A DNA stretch of 61,244 nucleotides from Porphyromonas uenonis 60-3 (lineage in GTDB: Bacteria; Bacteroidota; Bacteroidia; Bacteroidales; Porphyromonadaceae), in NCBI RefSeq assembly GCF_000174775.1, contig NZ_ACLR01000221.1:1-61244 (forward strand), in the 5' to 3' direction. The notes under the pieces are model-generated. The model ran no database searches and was not told the DNA's origin. It saw only the letters and a list, made by a program, of their open reading frames with translations. Both the position numbers and the translations under genes were made by a program. Positions 4,601-42,255 of this stretch are shown in pieces. How positions within the stretch are numbered: the first letter of the stretch is position 1; every line of letters begins with the position of its first letter.

Positions 4601-7600
4601 AGAGCGACTTTGAGGCAGCCAATATCGAGTACATCGAGTTCTGGATGATGGATCCTTTCATCTATCCCGAGACGGCTCCGACGAGTGGCAAGCTCTTCTT
4701 CAACCTGGGCGAGGTGTCGGAGGAGGTGCTGAAGGATGAGAAGAAGTTCTTCGAGAATGGTATGCCGCTCAACGATGACCCCTCGGCAACCATCGAGACG
4801 GTCTGGGGACGCGTGCCTATTCGTCAGACGGCTGGCTACTCTTTTGACAATGCTGCTGGGGCGCGTAGCAAGCAAGATGTGGGCTTCAATGGACTAACCT
4901 CTGAGCAGGAGAAGGCTTTCCCCGCTTATGCCAACTATCTCTCCGCAATCCGTGGCAAGGTGTCGGGCGAAGTGCTCGAGCAGTGGCAGGGCGATCCGAT
5001 GAGTCCGCTGAATGACCCGGCGGGTGATAGCTTCCGCCACTACCGTGATGAGCGATATGACCAGCTACAGTCGCCGATCCTCGAGCGATACAAGTACTAC
5101 AACGGGGTCGAGGGCAATAGTGCTGAGGCAACCAATGAGACTGGCTCCTACAGCGTGGCGAGCCGTGTCGTACCGGATGTGGAGGATATCAACCAAGACA
5201 ACACGCTCAACGAGCAGGAGCGTTACTTCGAGTACGAGATAGCGCTCTCGCCTGCCGAGATGCAGGTGGGGCGCAACTACATCGTTGACGAGCGCTCGGT
5301 CAATGTGAAGCTAGCCAACGGCAAGCAAGAGACGGTCAAGTGGTATCAGTTCAAGATCCCCGTACGAGAGCCGACCCGCAGGGTAGGGGGCATAGCCGAC
5401 CTCAAGAGTATTCGCTTCATGCGCCTCTATCTGACGCAGTGGGACAAGCCTGTGGTCTTGCGCTTTGGTACCTTTAAGATGGTGCGTGGCGAGTGGCGAC
5501 AGTATGACCGCCCGCTACACGCTCCCTCTGTCACTCCTATATCTAATGGCACGATGGATGTCAATACGGTCAACATTGAGGAGAACGGTGACCGCAAGCC
5601 GATCAACTACATCCTTCCGCCAGGAGTCTCTCGTAGCGTCAGCCCTAGTCAGGCGCAAGCCATTCGTCAAAACGAGCAGTCGCTCAGCCTACGCATCAAG
5701 CGCCTAGCGCCAGGCGATGCACGAGCTGTCTACAAGAATACGGGACTAGACCTACGTCGCTACAAGCGTATCGAGCTATTTGTCCATGCCGAGGAGCTTC
5801 CCGAGGAGGGGACGCCCACGGGCAATGGCGAGATGACCGCTTTCCTCCGCTTAGGTTCTGACTATACGAACAACTATTACGAGTACAGCGTTCCCCTCGA
5901 GCTGACCCCCTTCGGCACTTACAGTGACAATGCTAAGGACCGAGAGATGGTTTGGCCAAAGGACAACAAGGTAGACTTCCGCTTTGACCTCCTCACGGGG
6001 CTCAAGATGCGACGCAACGCTGCGCAGGCTAATGGCGAGACGGATCTCTACACGCCTTACTCGGTGCCCGACGCTGAGCGTCCACGCAACACGGTCACCG
6101 TGATGGGTAATCCCTCGCTGAGCAATGTCAAGACCATCATGATCGGTGTGCGAAACAGCGCTGGTCAGATCAAGAGTGCCGAGATCTGGGTCAATGAGCT
6201 ACGCCTGAGCGAGTACCAAGAGCAGGGCGGCTGGGCGACCAATGCCGATCTGCAGGTACAGCTGAGCGATCTAGGTTCGTTTAGCGCCCGAGGCTCCTAC
6301 CGTACGGCGGGCTTTGGCGCACTCGATCAGTCACTCGCGCAGAGACAGCTAGAAGATACTGGCTTCCTCAACCTCTCGACGCAGGTAGAGCTGGGTAAGT
6401 TCTTCCCCGAGAAAGCGAAGGTGCGCATACCGCTCTACTATAGCTACCAAGACGAAGTGATTCGTCCGCAGTACAACCCGCTAGACCAAGACCTGCTCCT
6501 CACGGAGGCACTCGACAATGCTGCCAACGAGTCGGTACGTGACTCCATCAAGACGATGGCACTGACACGGACCCAGGCTCATGCGCTGTCGCTCTCCAAT
6601 GTGGGGGTCAACATACAGAGCAAGACCCCGATGCCGTACGACCCAGCCAACATTACGCTCGGCTACTCAATGTCTTGGGACGAGAAGAACAGCCCCGAGA
6701 TTGTCTACGACCGCAATCGTACGTGGCAAGCTACGGCGCAGTATCAGTATACGCCCGTGGTGGCTCCGTGGAAACCTTTTGACAAGCTCCAGCAAGGTAA
6801 GAACGCCTCCGAGGCTGTCCGCACGGTCACCTCGACGCTGAGAGGTTATCAGATCAACTACCTCCCCTCACGGCTTGCTTTCAACAGCTCCATCCTGCGC
6901 AACTACAGCGAGCATCAGGTGCGCAACCTCATGCCTGGCGGAGGAGCGGTGGCTGACTGGTCGCTACCAGCCACCTTCGTGCAGAACTTCGTCTGGCAGC
7001 GTGCCGCAAACGTTGTCTGGAACCCCACGACCAACCTCAAGCTCTCCTTTAACTCGGGCACCAACGCCCGCATCGTAGAGCCTCACGTACAGGTCAATCG
7101 TGAGCTAGCCCCCGACGACTACACGCTATGGCGCGACTCCGTCTGGCAGAGCATACGCAGTTGGGGACTCCCGATGCAGTACAACCAGACTGCCAATGCC
7201 ACCTACACGCTCCCGCTCGCCCTCATTCCCTTTATGGACTTCGTCTCAGCCACCGCCACCTATATGGCTTCGTACAATTGGGACCGTGGTGCCTTGACCC
7301 AGCAGGGCGCCTCCATGGGTAACGTGGTGCGCAACCAGATGAAGCTCGATGGACGGGTCAACATCCTCTTCCAGACGCTCTACCGCAAGTTCGACTGGTA
7401 CAAAGATTACGAGAAGCGACAGAACAAGAGCAGCACCCGAAACAACCGCTCCGTCGCTCGTCGAGATGCTCGTGCTAGTCGCTCCGATCAGGAGTCTACG
7501 GACAAAGCTTCCGCAGCCTCACAGCGTAAGAAGCCTGCGCCACTGCGCTTTACCAAAGAGGTGGTCCTGCGCCCCGATACGACGATTACCATCACCCACC

Positions 7601-18977: not shown

Positions 18978-19032
18978 GTAGAACCTGCCAAGCCTCTCAA
19001 CGATGCTCAAATTGGCAGGTCGTTTTATTTTA
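18978..19032 (+). ncRNA. Candidate small RNA or attenuated leader, about 50 nt
   Basis: The preceding promoter should start transcription near 18978. A perfect 9-bp stem ACCTGCCAA (18983-18991) with TTGGCAGGT (19012-19020), loop 20 nt, is followed by CGTTTTATTTT. Promoter, hairpin and T-tract together define a transcript of roughly 50 nt. The same hairpin could simply end the methyltransferase/GHKL operon, or attenuate transcription into psd 180 nt downstream. Confidence 0.45.
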
Positions 19033-33092: not shown

Positions 33093-33174
33093 GTTTATGG
33101 TGATAGAGCGCTGTGAAAGTGCGGTTCGTTGCCTTTGTCAATGGAGACTTGCAGATTGAAAGCCATACTTACAT

Positions 33175-33225
33175 AAAAAAGAGAAGTCCACACGACACGT
33201 ACTCAGCGTACTGCGTGTGGACTTC
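33175..33225 (-). terminator. Intrinsic terminator of the riboswitch-led minus-strand unit
   Basis: Perfect 12-bp stem GAAGTCCACACG (33183-33194) with 33214-33225. On the minus strand it is followed by TCTTTTTTATG, a proper U-tract (A-run at 33175-33180 on plus). On the plus strand no T-run follows, so it serves minus-strand transcription. No minus-strand protein gene precedes it within 1.2 kb. Confidence 0.85.
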
Positions 33226-34221
33226 AACTATTCGAAAGCTCTTGGCTTGCTATACTGTCACGTGGTGTGAGGTATAGCTTCTAGCGGGGTAGTACGCTTT
33301 GTGGCGACTTCCCTAGAGTCCATTGAACTGGTCAACGGAACTCTCCTAGAGCGGAACAGTGACCACGATGCTCATCTGAAGAGAGATGTGGGCTACGTGA
33401 GACGCTCCTATAAGGAGAGTAGGGTGGTAGTGGCTGGCCTTTTTCAACACACACTTAACCTATGACCAGTGGTACGCACCATACCTGTCTCTTCGTAGCG
33501 GATCCTCTTAGCTTTACGGTGTGAGGTTGTGGCCTCACCGTAGGACTCGCATCATGATTTGCTCGGGGTGGCAAGAGGATCTATTTGTCTATCTCCTAGT
33601 CTTGGGTAGACTGACTAGAACCTACAGCTGCTCCTCAAGTGATAAGTATGTACAGTGGTCGCTCTGCGCAGAGTCTGCGGTGACACAGACTGATCTAGTT
33701 CGCACGCACTAGTGTAGTGTGATATTAGGGACAGTGGCATAGACGAGAGCCTGCTGTATGCTTCCCCTTGTAGTGACGATCAGACGCCTAATAGATCTCG
33801 TATGGCACGGGTGCTATAGTAGCACGCATACCTTTATGGTACTCATAGAGATCGTAGTAGCAAGACATTGCTCAATCACTTTATCGAAAACGTTCCCCTA
33901 TTTTAAAGTAAATGTCCTCCTATCTAGTCTCGTATGGGCATCCAAAGAGTCTCCTAGGTGCATTGCTGTGACCAAAGCTTTTTGACTCGGAAGATTGTGT
34001 CACAGCTACTTCTCGTCGAGAAAGCTGGTAGGCACTCAAGATGTCCCACATACTACGCATCGTGGTGTGATGCCTAGATGCATCGCTCGCATTGTAACAT
34101 ACATCTCCCGTCGCGCTCGACTAGGAGTAGCGAGGAGCGTACAGCTGGGGGAATAGGAGTCTCAGACTAGGATCTGAAAGTCGACGATTATTTCCTTATG
34201 CTATACCTCGTAGCGCTTCAA
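33226..34221 (-). ncRNA. Candidate ~1 kb structured non-coding RNA downstream of a cobalamin riboswitch
   Basis: This stretch has no convincing ORF on either strand; all minus-strand ORFs are under 60 codons. It sits between the riboswitch and the terminator of a minus-strand transcription unit. It is dense in local hairpins: 33249-33278 (7 bp plus 4), 33315-33344 (12 bp with one bulge), 33373-33388, 33516-33541 (9 bp with bulge), 33662-33690 (two), 33811-33825, 33966-34005 (7 bp, CTGTGAC/GTCACAG), 34004-34026, 34057-34073 and 34162-34177. In the 33315-33344 stem one pair is G-U on the minus strand but A-C on the plus, which favours a minus-strand RNA. A decayed gene is the alternative. Several tiny ORFs exist, e.g. 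46 codons starting near 34059, without a clear ribosome site. Confidence 0.5.
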
Positions 34222-34362
34222 GCCTTGCAGGTCTTCTGACTTACCTCATACAGACATCCCTTCCCACACCAATTATACAAGGTGCAGTGGTTATGATGCC
34301 TGCTTTGCGAGGATTACAGCAGCGGGACTGTTCAGGAATTTCACCTGATTCCCTTTTAAGCC
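34222..34362 (-). promoter_or_regulatory. Cobalamin (B12) riboswitch
   Basis: Read on the minus strand, the sequence carries the conserved blocks in order: AAAAGGGAATCAGGTGAAAT, CAGTCCCGCTGCTGTAATCC, ACCACTGC, GTGGGAAGGGATG and AAGTCAGAAGACCTGC. These are the signature elements of the adenosylcobalamin-type riboswitch, including the CAGTCCCGC and CCACTG junction and the B12-box region near the 3' end. It is preceded by a consensus promoter (34422-34452) and followed by about 1 kb without a protein gene, then a terminator. In known cases B12 binding usually lowers expression of downstream genes. Confidence 0.93.
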
Positions 34363-34421
34363 TTGAGGACTCCGAGACCCTACTCGAGGGTGAAGAAAGT
34401 GCTCTCAGCACAAAGCCACCA

Positions 34422-34452
34422 CAAAGGTACGACAACTTTCCAAAATATCAAA
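34422..34452 (-). promoter_or_regulatory. Promoter of the riboswitch-led transcription unit
   Basis: On the minus strand TTTG (34452-34449), exactly 19 nt, then TACCTTTG (34429-34422), a perfect Bacteroidetes promoter. Transcription should begin near 34415, about 50 nt before the riboswitch core. Confidence 0.8.
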
Positions 34453-39681: not shown

Positions 39682-42255
39682 CTAGCCACACTTTGAGGAG
39701 CCGCAGTTGGTGCAGATGAGGCAACCCTCCTGATAGACCAGCGTGTGCTGTCCGCAGTTAGAGCAGGCGGCAGTTACGGCTGTACCGCTAGGGAGGTAGC
39801 TCTTGAGAGCACGAGCCACACCGTTCTTCCAGGTGTTGATACTTTCATCGTTGAGCTCCATGCCTTGGACCAAGTTGATGACCTGATCTATCGGCATCTG
39901 GTAGCGTAGGACGCCTGAGATGAGCTTCGCATAGTTCCAGTACTCAGGGTTGAACTTCGTGTCTAGCCCCTCTACCGTAGTCTTGAAGCCACGCTTGTTG
40001 TGGAACTGGAAGTCATAGTGCTTCGTGCCGTCCTCGTCGTAGCTACGGATGATCTTACCCTTCGTCACGCTCTTGGGAAGCATGATACCCTCGTCATCGT
40101 CAGCGATACCTGTGAAGACCTCGTAAGGCTTACCGTCGAGCAAGCCGACGAAGGCGATCCACTTCTCCTTATTGTTCTGAAAGCGTACGATGTCAGCATC
40201 TAGTACCTTGGGACGCTTGTGTACAGCCTGAGGCATAGTCGTAGGCTCTACGGGAATTTCCGCAGCTGCCTCTTGCTCAGCCTTCGCTTGCTTCTCTTTC
40301 TTCTGCTGCTCCTCCGAGATGAGCACGCCTGAGCGAGAGCCCTCACGGTATACGGTACAGCCCTTGCATCCAGCCTTCCACGCCTCAATGTAAAGCGTAG
40401 CCACCATCTCCTGAGAGATGTCCGAGGGGAGGTTGATCGTCACGCTAATGCTGTGATCCACCCATTGCTGTATGCGTCCCTGCATCTTGACCTTAGCGAC
40501 CCAGTCCACATCGTTGGCAGTAGCCTTGTGGTAGGGCGACTTAGCGACCAGCTCCTGTAGCTCTTCGTGCGAGTAGTTCTTCTCGGGGTCGTAGCCGTTG
40601 ATCTTCATCCAGGTGAGGAAGTTGTGGTGGTAGACCGTGTACTCCTCAAAGGTGTCGCCCGTCTCGTCCGTGTAGTCCACCTTGACGTTCTTGTCGTTAG
40701 GATTGACCTTGCGTCTGCGTTTGTAGACTGGCATGAAGACTGGCTCGATACCTGACGAAGTCTGCGTCATCAGGCTCGTAGACCCTGTAGGAGCGATGGT
40801 CAGCATCGCTATATTACGACGGCCGAACTTCTTCATCTCCTCATAGAGCTTCGGATCAGCCTTGGCAATGCGCTGGATAAAAGGATTGTCCTTCTCACGC
40901 TCTGTGTCATAGAGGTCAAAGGCTCCGCGCTCCTTAGCCAACTCTACTGAGCTAGCGTAAGCTGATAGGCAAAGGGTCTTCTGCACCTCCTCTGCAAAGC
41001 TGATAGCCTCGTCTGAGCCGTAGCGCATACCCATAGCAGCGAGCATATCACCCTCGGCTGTGATGCCGACACCTGTACGACGTCCGAGGAGGGTCTTGCG
41101 CTTGATCTTGCGCCACAGCTCACGCTCAGCTGCTTTGACCTCTTCGGTCTCCGTATCTGAGGCGATCTTCATGAGGATTGCATCGATCTTCTCCGCCTCT
41201 AGGTCAATGATGTCGTCCATGATGCGGAGCGCCTTGGCAACATGCTCACGGAAGAGATCAAAGTCAAACGAAGCCTCTGCCGTAAAGGGGTTGCGCACGT
41301 AGCTATACAGGTTGATCGCCAGCAGACGGCAACTATCGTACGGACAGAGAGGTATCTCTCCGCAAGGATTGGTCGAGATAGTCTTGAAGCCTAGATCAGC
41401 GTAGCAGTCGGGCACAGACTCACGGATGATCGTGTCCCAAAAGAGCACCCCTGGCTCAGCACTCCGCCAAGCATTGTAGATGATCTTGTCCCATAGCTGG
41501 CGCGCCTGAATGGTGCGGGTAAACTTAGGCTCTGCAGAGTGGACGGGGTAGGTCTGCAGATACTCTTTGTCCTCTACGACCGCCTGCATGAAGGCATCGT
41601 CGATGCGTACTGACACATTGGCACCCGTCACCTTACCCTCGGTCATCTTAGCATCGATAAAGGACTCGCTGTCAGGGTGATTGATCGAGACCGTGAGCAT
41701 GAGTGCACCACGACGACCATCTTGCGCCACCTCACGCGTGGAGTTGGAGTAGCGCTCCATAAAGGGTACTAAGCCCGTAGAGGTGAGGGCTGAGTTCTTG
41801 ACGGGCGAACCCTTAGGACGTATGTGTGAGAGATCGTGTCCCACGCCACCACGGCGCTTCATCAGCTGTACCTGCTCCTCATCAATGCGGATGATGCCAC
41901 CGTACGAGTCGGGCTCACCGTCTAGGCCGATGACGAAGCAGTTTGAGAGCGATGCGATCTGGTAGTTATTGCCGATGCCAGTCATCGGGCTACCCTGAGG
42001 CACGATGTAGCGGAAGTGATCCATCAGATCCATCAGCTCACTCTCAGAGAGCGGGTTGGGGTAGTTGTGCTCTATGCGGACCAGCTCCCGAGCTATGCGC
42101 TGGTGCATGTCGCGAGGGGTCTGCTCATAGATATTGCCGTAGCTGTCCTTGAGGGCGTACTTGGTCACCCATACCTTGGCGGCTAGTTCATCACCGCCGA
42201 AGTAGTCCAATGTGGCTTGATAAGCCTCATCAAAGGAATATGTCTTTTGCTTCAC
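39682..42255 (-). CDS. nrdJ: Adenosylcobalamin-dependent class II ribonucleotide reductase
   Basis: NrdJ reduces ribonucleotides to deoxyribonucleotides with a B12-derived radical and needs no oxygen. The protein has 857 residues. Seen motifs: SLSNCFVIGLD with the first active-site Cys, RRGGVGHDLSHIRPKGSPV, TNPCGEIPLCPYDSC with the catalytic Asn, Cys and Glu, IAPTGSTS, and a C-terminal zinc ribbon with CSNCGQ and CTNCGSSKCG supplying the redox cysteines. It makes this organism partly B12-dependent. The B12 riboswitch 5 kb away does not control it: it lies on the other side of plus-strand genes, and the 350 nt upstream show no riboswitch. Confidence 0.95.
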   Translation of the reverse strand: MKQKTYSFDEAYQATLDYFGGDELAAKVWVTKYALKDSYGNIYEQTPRDMHQRIARELVRIEHNYPNPLSESELMDLMDHFRYIVPQGSPMTGIGNNYQIASLSNCFVIGLDGEPDSYGGIIRIDEEQVQLMKRRGGVGHDLSHIRPKGSPVKNSALTSTGLVPFMERYSNSTREVAQDGRRGALMLTVSINHPDSESFIDAKMTEGKVTGANVSVRIDDAFMQAVVEDKEYLQTYPVHSAEPKFTRTIQARQLWDKIIYNAWRSAEPGVLFWDTIIRESVPDCYADLGFKTISTNPCGEIPLCPYDSCRLLAINLYSYVRNPFTAEASFDFDLFREHVAKALRIMDDIIDLEAEKIDAILMKIASDTETEEVKAAERELWRKIKRKTLLGRRTGVGITAEGDMLAAMGMRYGSDEAISFAEEVQKTLCLSAYASSVELAKERGAFDLYDTEREKDNPFIQRIAKADPKLYEEMKKFGRRNIAMLTIAPTGSTSLMTQTSSGIEPVFMPVYKRRRKVNPNDKNVKVDYTDETGDTFEEYTVYHHNFLTWMKINGYDPEKNYSHEELQELVAKSPYHKATANDVDWVAKVKMQGRIQQWVDHSISVTINLPSDISQEMVATLYIEAWKAGCKGCTVYREGSRSGVLISEEQQKKEKQAKAEQEAAAEIPVEPTTMPQAVHKRPKVLDADIVRFQNNKEKWIAFVGLLDGKPYEVFTGIADDDEGIMLPKSVTKGKIIRSYDEDGTKHYDFQFHNKRGFKTTVEGLDTKFNPEYWNYAKLISGVLRYQMPIDQVINLVQGMELNDESINTWKNGVARALKSYLPSGTAVTAACSNCGQHTLVYQEGCLICTNCGSSKCG

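Follow-up and report, generated by a model that had tools for sequence, protein, structure and literature searches.

A conserved, cobalamin riboswitch-headed RNA unit in Porphyromonas is predicted to act in trans as an antisense RNA on B12-dependent pathways

Riboswitches are taught as switches for the adjoining gene, and a cobalamin riboswitch that leads into about 1 kb of apparently non-coding DNA raises the question of what it controls. Such a locus lies on the minus strand of the contig from Porphyromonas uenonis 60-3 that was analysed here over its whole length of 61,244 nucleotides (the window). The initial annotation had described a promoter, a riboswitch, an ORF-poor stretch of about 1 kb and a 12-bp terminator, and had read them as a B12-gated regulatory RNA. 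This layout was confirmed, and the features are collected in Table 1.

Table 1. Features of the riboswitch-headed unit in the window
Feature	Position	Strand	Basis or remark
Promoter of the Bacteroidetes type: TTTG (34449-34452), 19 nt, TACCTTTG (34422-34429)	34422..34452	minus	sequence read
Cobalamin riboswitch aptamer, RF00174	34209..34397	minus	88.7 bits, model positions 1-189 of 189
Post-aptamer hairpin GCUACGAGGUAUAGC, counterpart of CUUCGAGG in 18 orthologous RNAs	34190..34216	minus	sequence comparison
Non-coding RNA body	33226..34208	minus	kept in 5 genomes, ORF-poor, without Rfam match
Seed 1, within the invariant 45-nt block 33859-33903	33866..33903	minus	complementary to glmS, glmE, kal, kdd and kamA starts
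Seed 2 (GTGTGTGTTG), within an invariant 23-nt block	33445..33454	minus	leaders of mutA and mutB are complementary to it; less well supported
Intrinsic terminator, perfect 12-bp stem and U-tract	33175..33225	minus	sequence read; 33176-33225 92-100% identical between genomes

The aptamer belongs to RF00174, as the match to the covariance model is full-length and its score compares with a gathering score of 31.5. The promoter agrees with the Bacteroidetes consensus of the TTTG/TACCTTTG type, and TACCTTTG lies inside a 31-nt block that is without any change across the five genomes that carry the unit. We take the post-aptamer hairpin to be P13/L13, and on inspection no obvious attenuator was seen just 3' of the aptamer. 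At the other end GAAGTCCACACG (33214-33225) is fully paired with CGTGTGGACTTC (33183-33194) and is followed by TCTTTTTT; this terminator is missing from our hairpin scan because the scan accepts loops of 3-8 nt only. The predicted transcript is about 1.24 kb long. Among ORFs of at least 40 aa the longest on the minus strand of the body has 46 aa, the plus strand of the same region has ORFs of 75 and 63 aa, and the tRNA-Ala and the TonB-linked receptor that come next after the terminator are both on the opposite strand. When 33150-34220 was searched against Rfam at E<=5, as the initial annotation had proposed for the body, there was no match to any family, including OLE, ROOL and GOLLD. Elsewhere in the window (18984-19020, plus strand) RF03085 matches at 59.2 bits; this is abiF RNA, an already known small RNA whose name ties it to an abortive-infection system.

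When 26 genomes of the genus and 38 of the family were searched with the body (query 33180-34200), it was present in 5 of the 26 and in the same 5 among the 38. These are the window's own genome (G000), G001, which we take to be P. asaccharolytica DSM 20707, G024 (Porphyromonas uenonis DSM 23387), G025, and G022, a metagenome-assembled genome of an uncultured Porphyromonas. The neighbours asd and the TonB-linked receptor are common to G000, G001 and G024; in G025 and G022 the unit lies in other surroundings and the main alignment comprises the unit alone, from the upstream side of the promoter to the terminator, with two extra short matches at the tRNA side in G025. In the syntenic genomes the identity of the body, counted by substitutions, is 0.895 (G001) and 0.939 (G024), compared with 0.688-0.765 and 0.790-0.848, respectively, at the 4-fold sites of four neighbour genes, which means that substitution in the body is two to three times below that at these sites. 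Blocks of 49, 45 and 38 nt are unchanged across all five genomes, those of 49 and 38 nt being 34060-34108 and 33548-33585. Because identity is above that at the 4-fold sites of neighbour genes, the body is under selection and is not a decayed gene, and on this comparison we regard the unit as a selected non-coding RNA, conserved outside the riboswitch as the initial annotation would have it.

A small protein was considered and rejected, since none of the G000 ORFs of at least 20 aa in the unit is intact in all five genomes when downstream starts of the same frames are left out (four, with lengths of 20-39 aa, remain intact in four of them), and for the same reason the unit was not classed as a protein-coding gene or pseudogene. 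Phage or plasmid origin was likewise rejected, as only short pieces of the aptamer were matched in five records of the plasmid collection and one phage record; a 28-nt pattern from the body had no match in viral contigs. The G024 copy carries an insertion and a deletion of about 29 nt in its 3' half, and both seeds are intact. The insertion (L015, about 5981-6162) is some 165-180 nt long and has inverted ends, GGAGACTGTTGC and GCAACAGTCTC, which by eye look MITE-like; similar ends also occur beyond the unit in G016.

Is the riboswitch itself confined to these five genomes? RF00174 has 85 matches in 23 of the 26 genus genomes, one of them below cut-off, and the ORFs downstream of all 85 were listed. 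Most lead nearby protein genes, which by eye are NrdD/NrdG-like, AbfD-like, lipoprotein or TonB-receptor genes. All 85 aptamers were placed in one tree (MAFFT, FastTree, midpoint root), in which the five focal riboswitches and 18 others form one clade with support of 0.958 and with exactly one member in each of 23 genomes. The genes downstream of these 23 differ in kind and strand and no protein gene is common to them. The two genomes G003 and G007 have neither a mutA-like match nor any RF00174 match; mutA-like matches are present in 24 of 26 genomes, and G021, which is 54% complete, has these and no riboswitch match.

The 18 orthologues carry the post-aptamer loop CUUCGAGG and the focal group carries CUACGAGG; the loop pattern matched 16 of 18 and all five focal members, those of G004 and G016 were recognised by eye, and the pattern is also present in four riboswitches outside the clade. 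By eye, 15 of the 18 orthologous RNAs are about 0.4-0.5 kb long, and those of G005, G018 and G016 are longer. Their 3' part has a UUGCC-type loop and, in 9 of 18, a linker with UUUAGUG; the terminator stem covaries, with 6 of 10 pairs changing on both sides in 10 sequences, and GGGATGAGCTCC stands at the terminator tip in 9 of 18. A model of this 3' part (R1) did not match the focal unit, which says little because R1 recovered only 2 of the 8 orthologues outside its training set at E<0.05; its yield over 247 genomes of the order was a match in G011 of the genus and a weak additional one (E 0.007). The focal body differs from those of the orthologues, and we therefore read it as a distinct and longer form behind an orthologous riboswitch, the orthology being established for the riboswitch. 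In the sister genus there were 46 riboswitch matches in 11 of 12 genomes, and among the 30 loci read the sole locus with the type-A loop pattern, which missed 2 of 18 members in Porphyromonas, leads an ORF.

With the riboswitch thus traced through the genus, the function of the body was sought in its complementarity to other messages. The leaders of ten B12-linked and control genes were compared first and then sixteen, of which one was not found; the first set was compared by exact-run tests. Adenosylcobalamin is used by glutamate mutase, lysine 5,6-aminomutase and methylmalonyl-CoA mutase; lysine 2,3-aminomutase and other kam genes belong to the same pathway and do not use it. The glmS leader matches seed 1 in four of four genomes with GCTCAATCA, an AAAACGT block and TCCCCTATT, the last of which abuts the ATG. 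The glmE leader does so with CTCAATCACT and TTCCCCTAT (2 of 2 genomes read), that of kamA with TCCCCTAT near -22 and a TCGAAA block (4 of 4), and that of kdd with CCCCTATTT (4 of 4). In G001 the kal leader is complementary over 12 nt at -26, and this site is kept in G000 and G025 and is altered or weaker in G024. Pairing to kamB is strong in G001 and G025 and less so in G000, and its start was not found in G024. No conserved complementarity was found in the leaders of nrdJ, nrdD, kce and kamD; among the controls asd, gcvT and the TonB gene, the last alone gave a match, one shared 8-mer. Candidates that were given up include nrdD, nrdJ and abfD, the last having a 9-mer conserved in four genomes, but its duplexes of -15 to -17 kcal/mol barely use it or do not use it at all. 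NrdJ is indeed encoded in the window (39682-42255; TIGR02504, 587.9 bits), but the hint in the initial annotation that pointed to it did not lead to a direct target. The identities of methylaspartate mutase S and E, lysine 2,3-aminomutase, KDD, KamB, lysine 5,6-aminomutase alpha and the small subunit of methylmalonyl-CoA mutase are given by NCBIfam equivalogs above cut-off; that of kal comes from a 30-aa fragment only, at 36.6 bits against a cut-off of 160.

From 800 kb of G001, 631 genes were called; when their start regions were ranked by the energy of the duplex with seed 1, glmS came first, kamB second, glmE fifth and kamA eighth, ranks 3, 4, 6 and 7 being held by unrelated genes. When a 38-nt window was slid along the RNA in 53 windows, the seed-1 window alone brought 6 of a set of 13 glm/kam genes (kal is outside this set) into the top 30, compared with 2 for the next best and a mean of 0.32. 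The six are glmE, glmS, kamB, kamA and two late genes of the kam operon; kdd ranks 197. The hypergeometric probability of 6 of 13 is 9e-6, or 5e-4 after multiplication by 53; the gene set and the seed segments were chosen after the first matches, and therefore the scan measures the specificity of the window more than a blind discovery. At least two separate 8-nt runs to seed 1 occur in 5 of the 631 genes, including glmE, glmS and kamA, and with shuffled seeds a mean of 0.03 glm/kam genes (at most 1) had two runs. At least one run of 8 nt occurs in 5 of the 13 glm/kam genes compared with 0.92 in shuffles, with up to 7 in one shuffle. A fold that displays seed 1 is predicted in 3 of 4 genomes and is absent in G001, and every fold is at most 1.6 sd better than shuffles. 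Two further G001 starts match both seeds, namely that of G001:C1:571851-573531 (minus strand; 9 nt to seed 1, 10 nt to seed 2) and that of the gene starting at 739551 on the plus strand of the same contig (10 nt and 8 nt).

In the focal group the leaders of mutA and mutB carry CAACACACAC and AACACACAC, which are complementary to seed 2. This seed is of low complexity; in G001 mutA ranks 10 of 631 by energy, tied, the longest run of 10 nt is shared by mutA and three other genes, and rank 1 is held by a gene that by eye is peptidase T-like. When the mutA leaders of 23 genomes were set against the RNAs of their own genomes, CACTAAA, the complement of UUUAGUG, was present in 11 of 23, and 20 of 23 mutA genes start with ATGGCAA, which is able to pair with UUGCCAU. 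Changes in the RNA are matched by changes in the leader: TTCTAATCAC goes with GTGATTAGAA in G010 and G023, TCACAATA with TATTGTGA in G006, G008 and G009, ACACTAAATT with AATTTAGTGT in G014, and GGCAACAAAACAAA with TTTGTTTTGTTGCC over 14 nt in G005. Cognate duplexes of RNA and mutA leader in the 23 genomes had a mean of -26.5 kcal/mol compared with -20.7 (sd 0.8) when permuted, and none of 20,000 permutations was as good, the 55-nt RNA segments having been chosen where matches had already been seen. With 11 lineage representatives, which control only partly for kinship, the values were -27.7 and -21.6 (sd 1.4), again with 0 of 20,000. Reversed and shuffled leaders gave -17.6 and -16.1. The cognate leader ranked first for 4 of the 23 RNAs and tenth at worst. 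The RNA and the mutA leader thus differ between species in step.

A second genome, G006, which is presumably P. gingivalis ATCC 33277, was examined against 341 gene starts from 400 kb. By contiguous complementarity mutA is rank 1 of 341, with 11 nt over the start codon and 9 nt at -27; kal holds a joint second place, and kamA is next with 10 nt, tied with one unrelated gene. The motif TCACAATA, which was picked after the first matches were seen, occurs in 4 of the 341 start windows, those of mutA, kal, kamA and one other, with a probability of 1.3e-4; the two strands of the 400 kb together contain it 13 times. Judged by these matches, the targets mutA, kal and kamA recur in G006 through a different seed sequence. 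Taken over all genomes, the complementarity to start sites is conserved, stands out from the background and co-varies, as expected of a base-pairing RNA that acts in trans; the exception is the ranking by 36-nt duplex energy in G006, in which the targets were not singled out (mutA was 18 of 341 at the seed window).

What, then, does the riboswitch control? We consider it probable that it heads a trans-acting antisense RNA of about 1.24 kb which is gated by B12 and represses B12-dependent pathways when B12 is low. From the computed results, that is the unit, its selection, the orthology of the riboswitch and the conserved, co-varying complementarity to start sites, we infer that the unit is transcribed, that B12 switches it off, that the aptamer gates the body and that the targets are repressed. 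Cobalamin riboswitches usually turn expression off with ligand, and for this reason the RNA would be made, or made active, when cobalamin is scarce. Its invariant blocks would then base-pair with messages of B12-dependent catabolism around their translation starts; these messages are glmS and glmE for glutamate (methylaspartate) mutase, mutA and mutB for methylmalonyl-CoA mutase, and kal, kdd and kamA of the lysine 5,6-aminomutase pathway. As conserved blocks can pair with the start sites of B12-enzyme messages, these enzymes are probably shut down when B12 is scarce; the pairing would block initiation, and the little B12 that there is would be spared for other uses. The focal RNA would be the enlarged P. 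uenonis / P. asaccharolytica version of a genus-wide RNA, of which other versions would pair with mutA, and in one genome also with kal and kamA, through different seeds. The reading of the initial annotation as a B12-gated regulatory RNA is thereby strengthened from three sides, the non-coding conservation, the genus-wide orthology of the riboswitch and the conserved complementarity to mRNAs. With less assurance, we lean towards a wider proposal, that antisense RNAs headed by a riboswitch form a class of their own throughout the genus, each a single vitamin-sensing transcript that silences unlinked operons of the consumer enzymes. Seeds and target sites would differ together between species, so that unrelated seeds hold the same regulon, and the enlargement to about 1.24 kb in one lineage would have brought in glutamate mutase.

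Other readings of the locus were weighed. The unit could be a large structured RNA under B12 control whose main effect comes from its fold or from a protein bound to it, in the manner of Rli55 and EutX, the complementarity to mRNAs being secondary. Its length, the many predicted helices and the invariant blocks that have no assigned target, such as 34060-34108 and 33548-33585, speak for this reading, but target sites account for one of the longest invariant blocks, the shorter orthologues retain their complementarity to mutA, and in the 3' part only 3 of 134 predicted pairs change on both sides in four sequences, which gives little scope for judging structural covariation; we think this reading unlikely. 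A pairing RNA of the opposite sign, which activates or stabilises its targets or is produced under ample B12, is improbable: both the direction of the switch and the outcome of pairing are deduced, but the paired sites cover start regions, that of glmS abutting the ATG, and the usual behaviour of cobalamin riboswitches is to be off with ligand. It is very improbable that the unit is merely an exceptionally long 5' leader for a gene further on; an ORF on the same strand does follow within about 200-1100 nt in many of the 23 genomes, but in the window the unit is closed by a perfect terminator and the tRNA-Ala and the TonB-linked receptor are on the other strand, and between genomes the downstream genes vary or sit on the opposite strand (G012, G016, G017). 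Hardly credible, finally, is the alternative put forward by the initial annotation, a decayed B12-regulated protein gene of which promoter, riboswitch and terminator are left over, since the missing long ORF and the insertion and deletion in G024 are outweighed by substitution far below that at 4-fold sites, by the invariant blocks of 45 and 49 nt and by 22 orthologous riboswitches that have no protein gene in common.

The trans-acting antisense RNA that we favour has partial counterparts elsewhere. RyhB and PrrF are iron-sparing small RNAs, and the likeness is that scarcity of a cofactor induces an RNA which pairs, here by prediction, with the starts of mRNAs for proteins that use the cofactor; RyhB, however, is short, Fur-controlled and Hfq-dependent, whereas the Porphyromonas RNA would be about 1.24 kb long with a riboswitch as the sensor in its own transcript and B12 as the cofactor. 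Rli55 of Listeria and EutX of Enterococcus are RNAs headed by a B12 riboswitch, and in them, too, a cobalamin riboswitch governs a non-coding RNA and not a neighbouring coding region, but their role is to sequester the antiterminator EutV on behalf of a single eut locus, whereas several unlinked mRNAs are the predicted partners of the Porphyromonas RNA. AspocR of Listeria is likewise an antisense RNA controlled by a B12 riboswitch; it is cis-antisense to pocR, whereas the targets predicted here are in trans. To our knowledge, few antisense RNAs with known targets have been described in the phylum. For E. coli btuB, the excerpt of PMC11162775 places a cobalamin riboswitch and the small RNAs OmrA/OmrB in one B12 circuit, which is a further likeness; there the small RNAs act on the riboswitch mRNA, whereas in Porphyromonas the riboswitch heads the regulatory RNA. 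Among the matches listed in a literature search, as judged from titles and abstract openings, there was no Porphyromonas B12-riboswitch RNA with targets and no report of a riboswitch-headed, trans-pairing, vitamin-sparing RNA. According to the part of PMC5771137 that was consulted, P. gingivalis has five annotated cobalamin riboswitches that were described earlier by Hovik et al., and a transcript at the orthologous riboswitch of P. gingivalis may already be published there.

If the proposal is true, a riboswitch runs a trans-acting sparing response that is the B12 counterpart of the role of RyhB for iron. The presence in 23 Porphyromonas genomes of one B12 riboswitch of this clade each, with no consistent gene behind it, would then be explained, targets are predicted in a P. 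gingivalis laboratory strain, and the 23 genomes would be a natural record of coevolution between an RNA and its target.

Several other riboswitches were noted along the way. A cobalamin riboswitch (L096, G000:C131:80116-80344, plus strand) stands before what by eye is nrdD-nrdG, for the B12-independent ribonucleotide reductase, and the B12-dependent nrdJ of the window is behind none of the five RF00174 matches of G000. In G012 a riboswitch (L066, G012:C1:409109-409323, minus strand) is followed by about 1.6 kb without long ORFs and then by a second riboswitch that leads an AbfD-like gene. In the sister genus two cobalamin riboswitches, L234 (G030:C8) and L247 (G029:C51), have no ORF of at least 90 aa in the 1.5 kb downstream. 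Family B, present in eight genomes (L105, L107, L099, L106, L080, L092, L073 and L090), is another ORF-poor stretch led by a riboswitch and measures about 0.7-1.3 kb; it has a conserved CTCGGGAATAAGATTG after the aptamer and in several members also TCCAACCTATCC further on, and matches to CTCGGGAATAAGATTG with one mismatch occur in three genomes of the sister genus.
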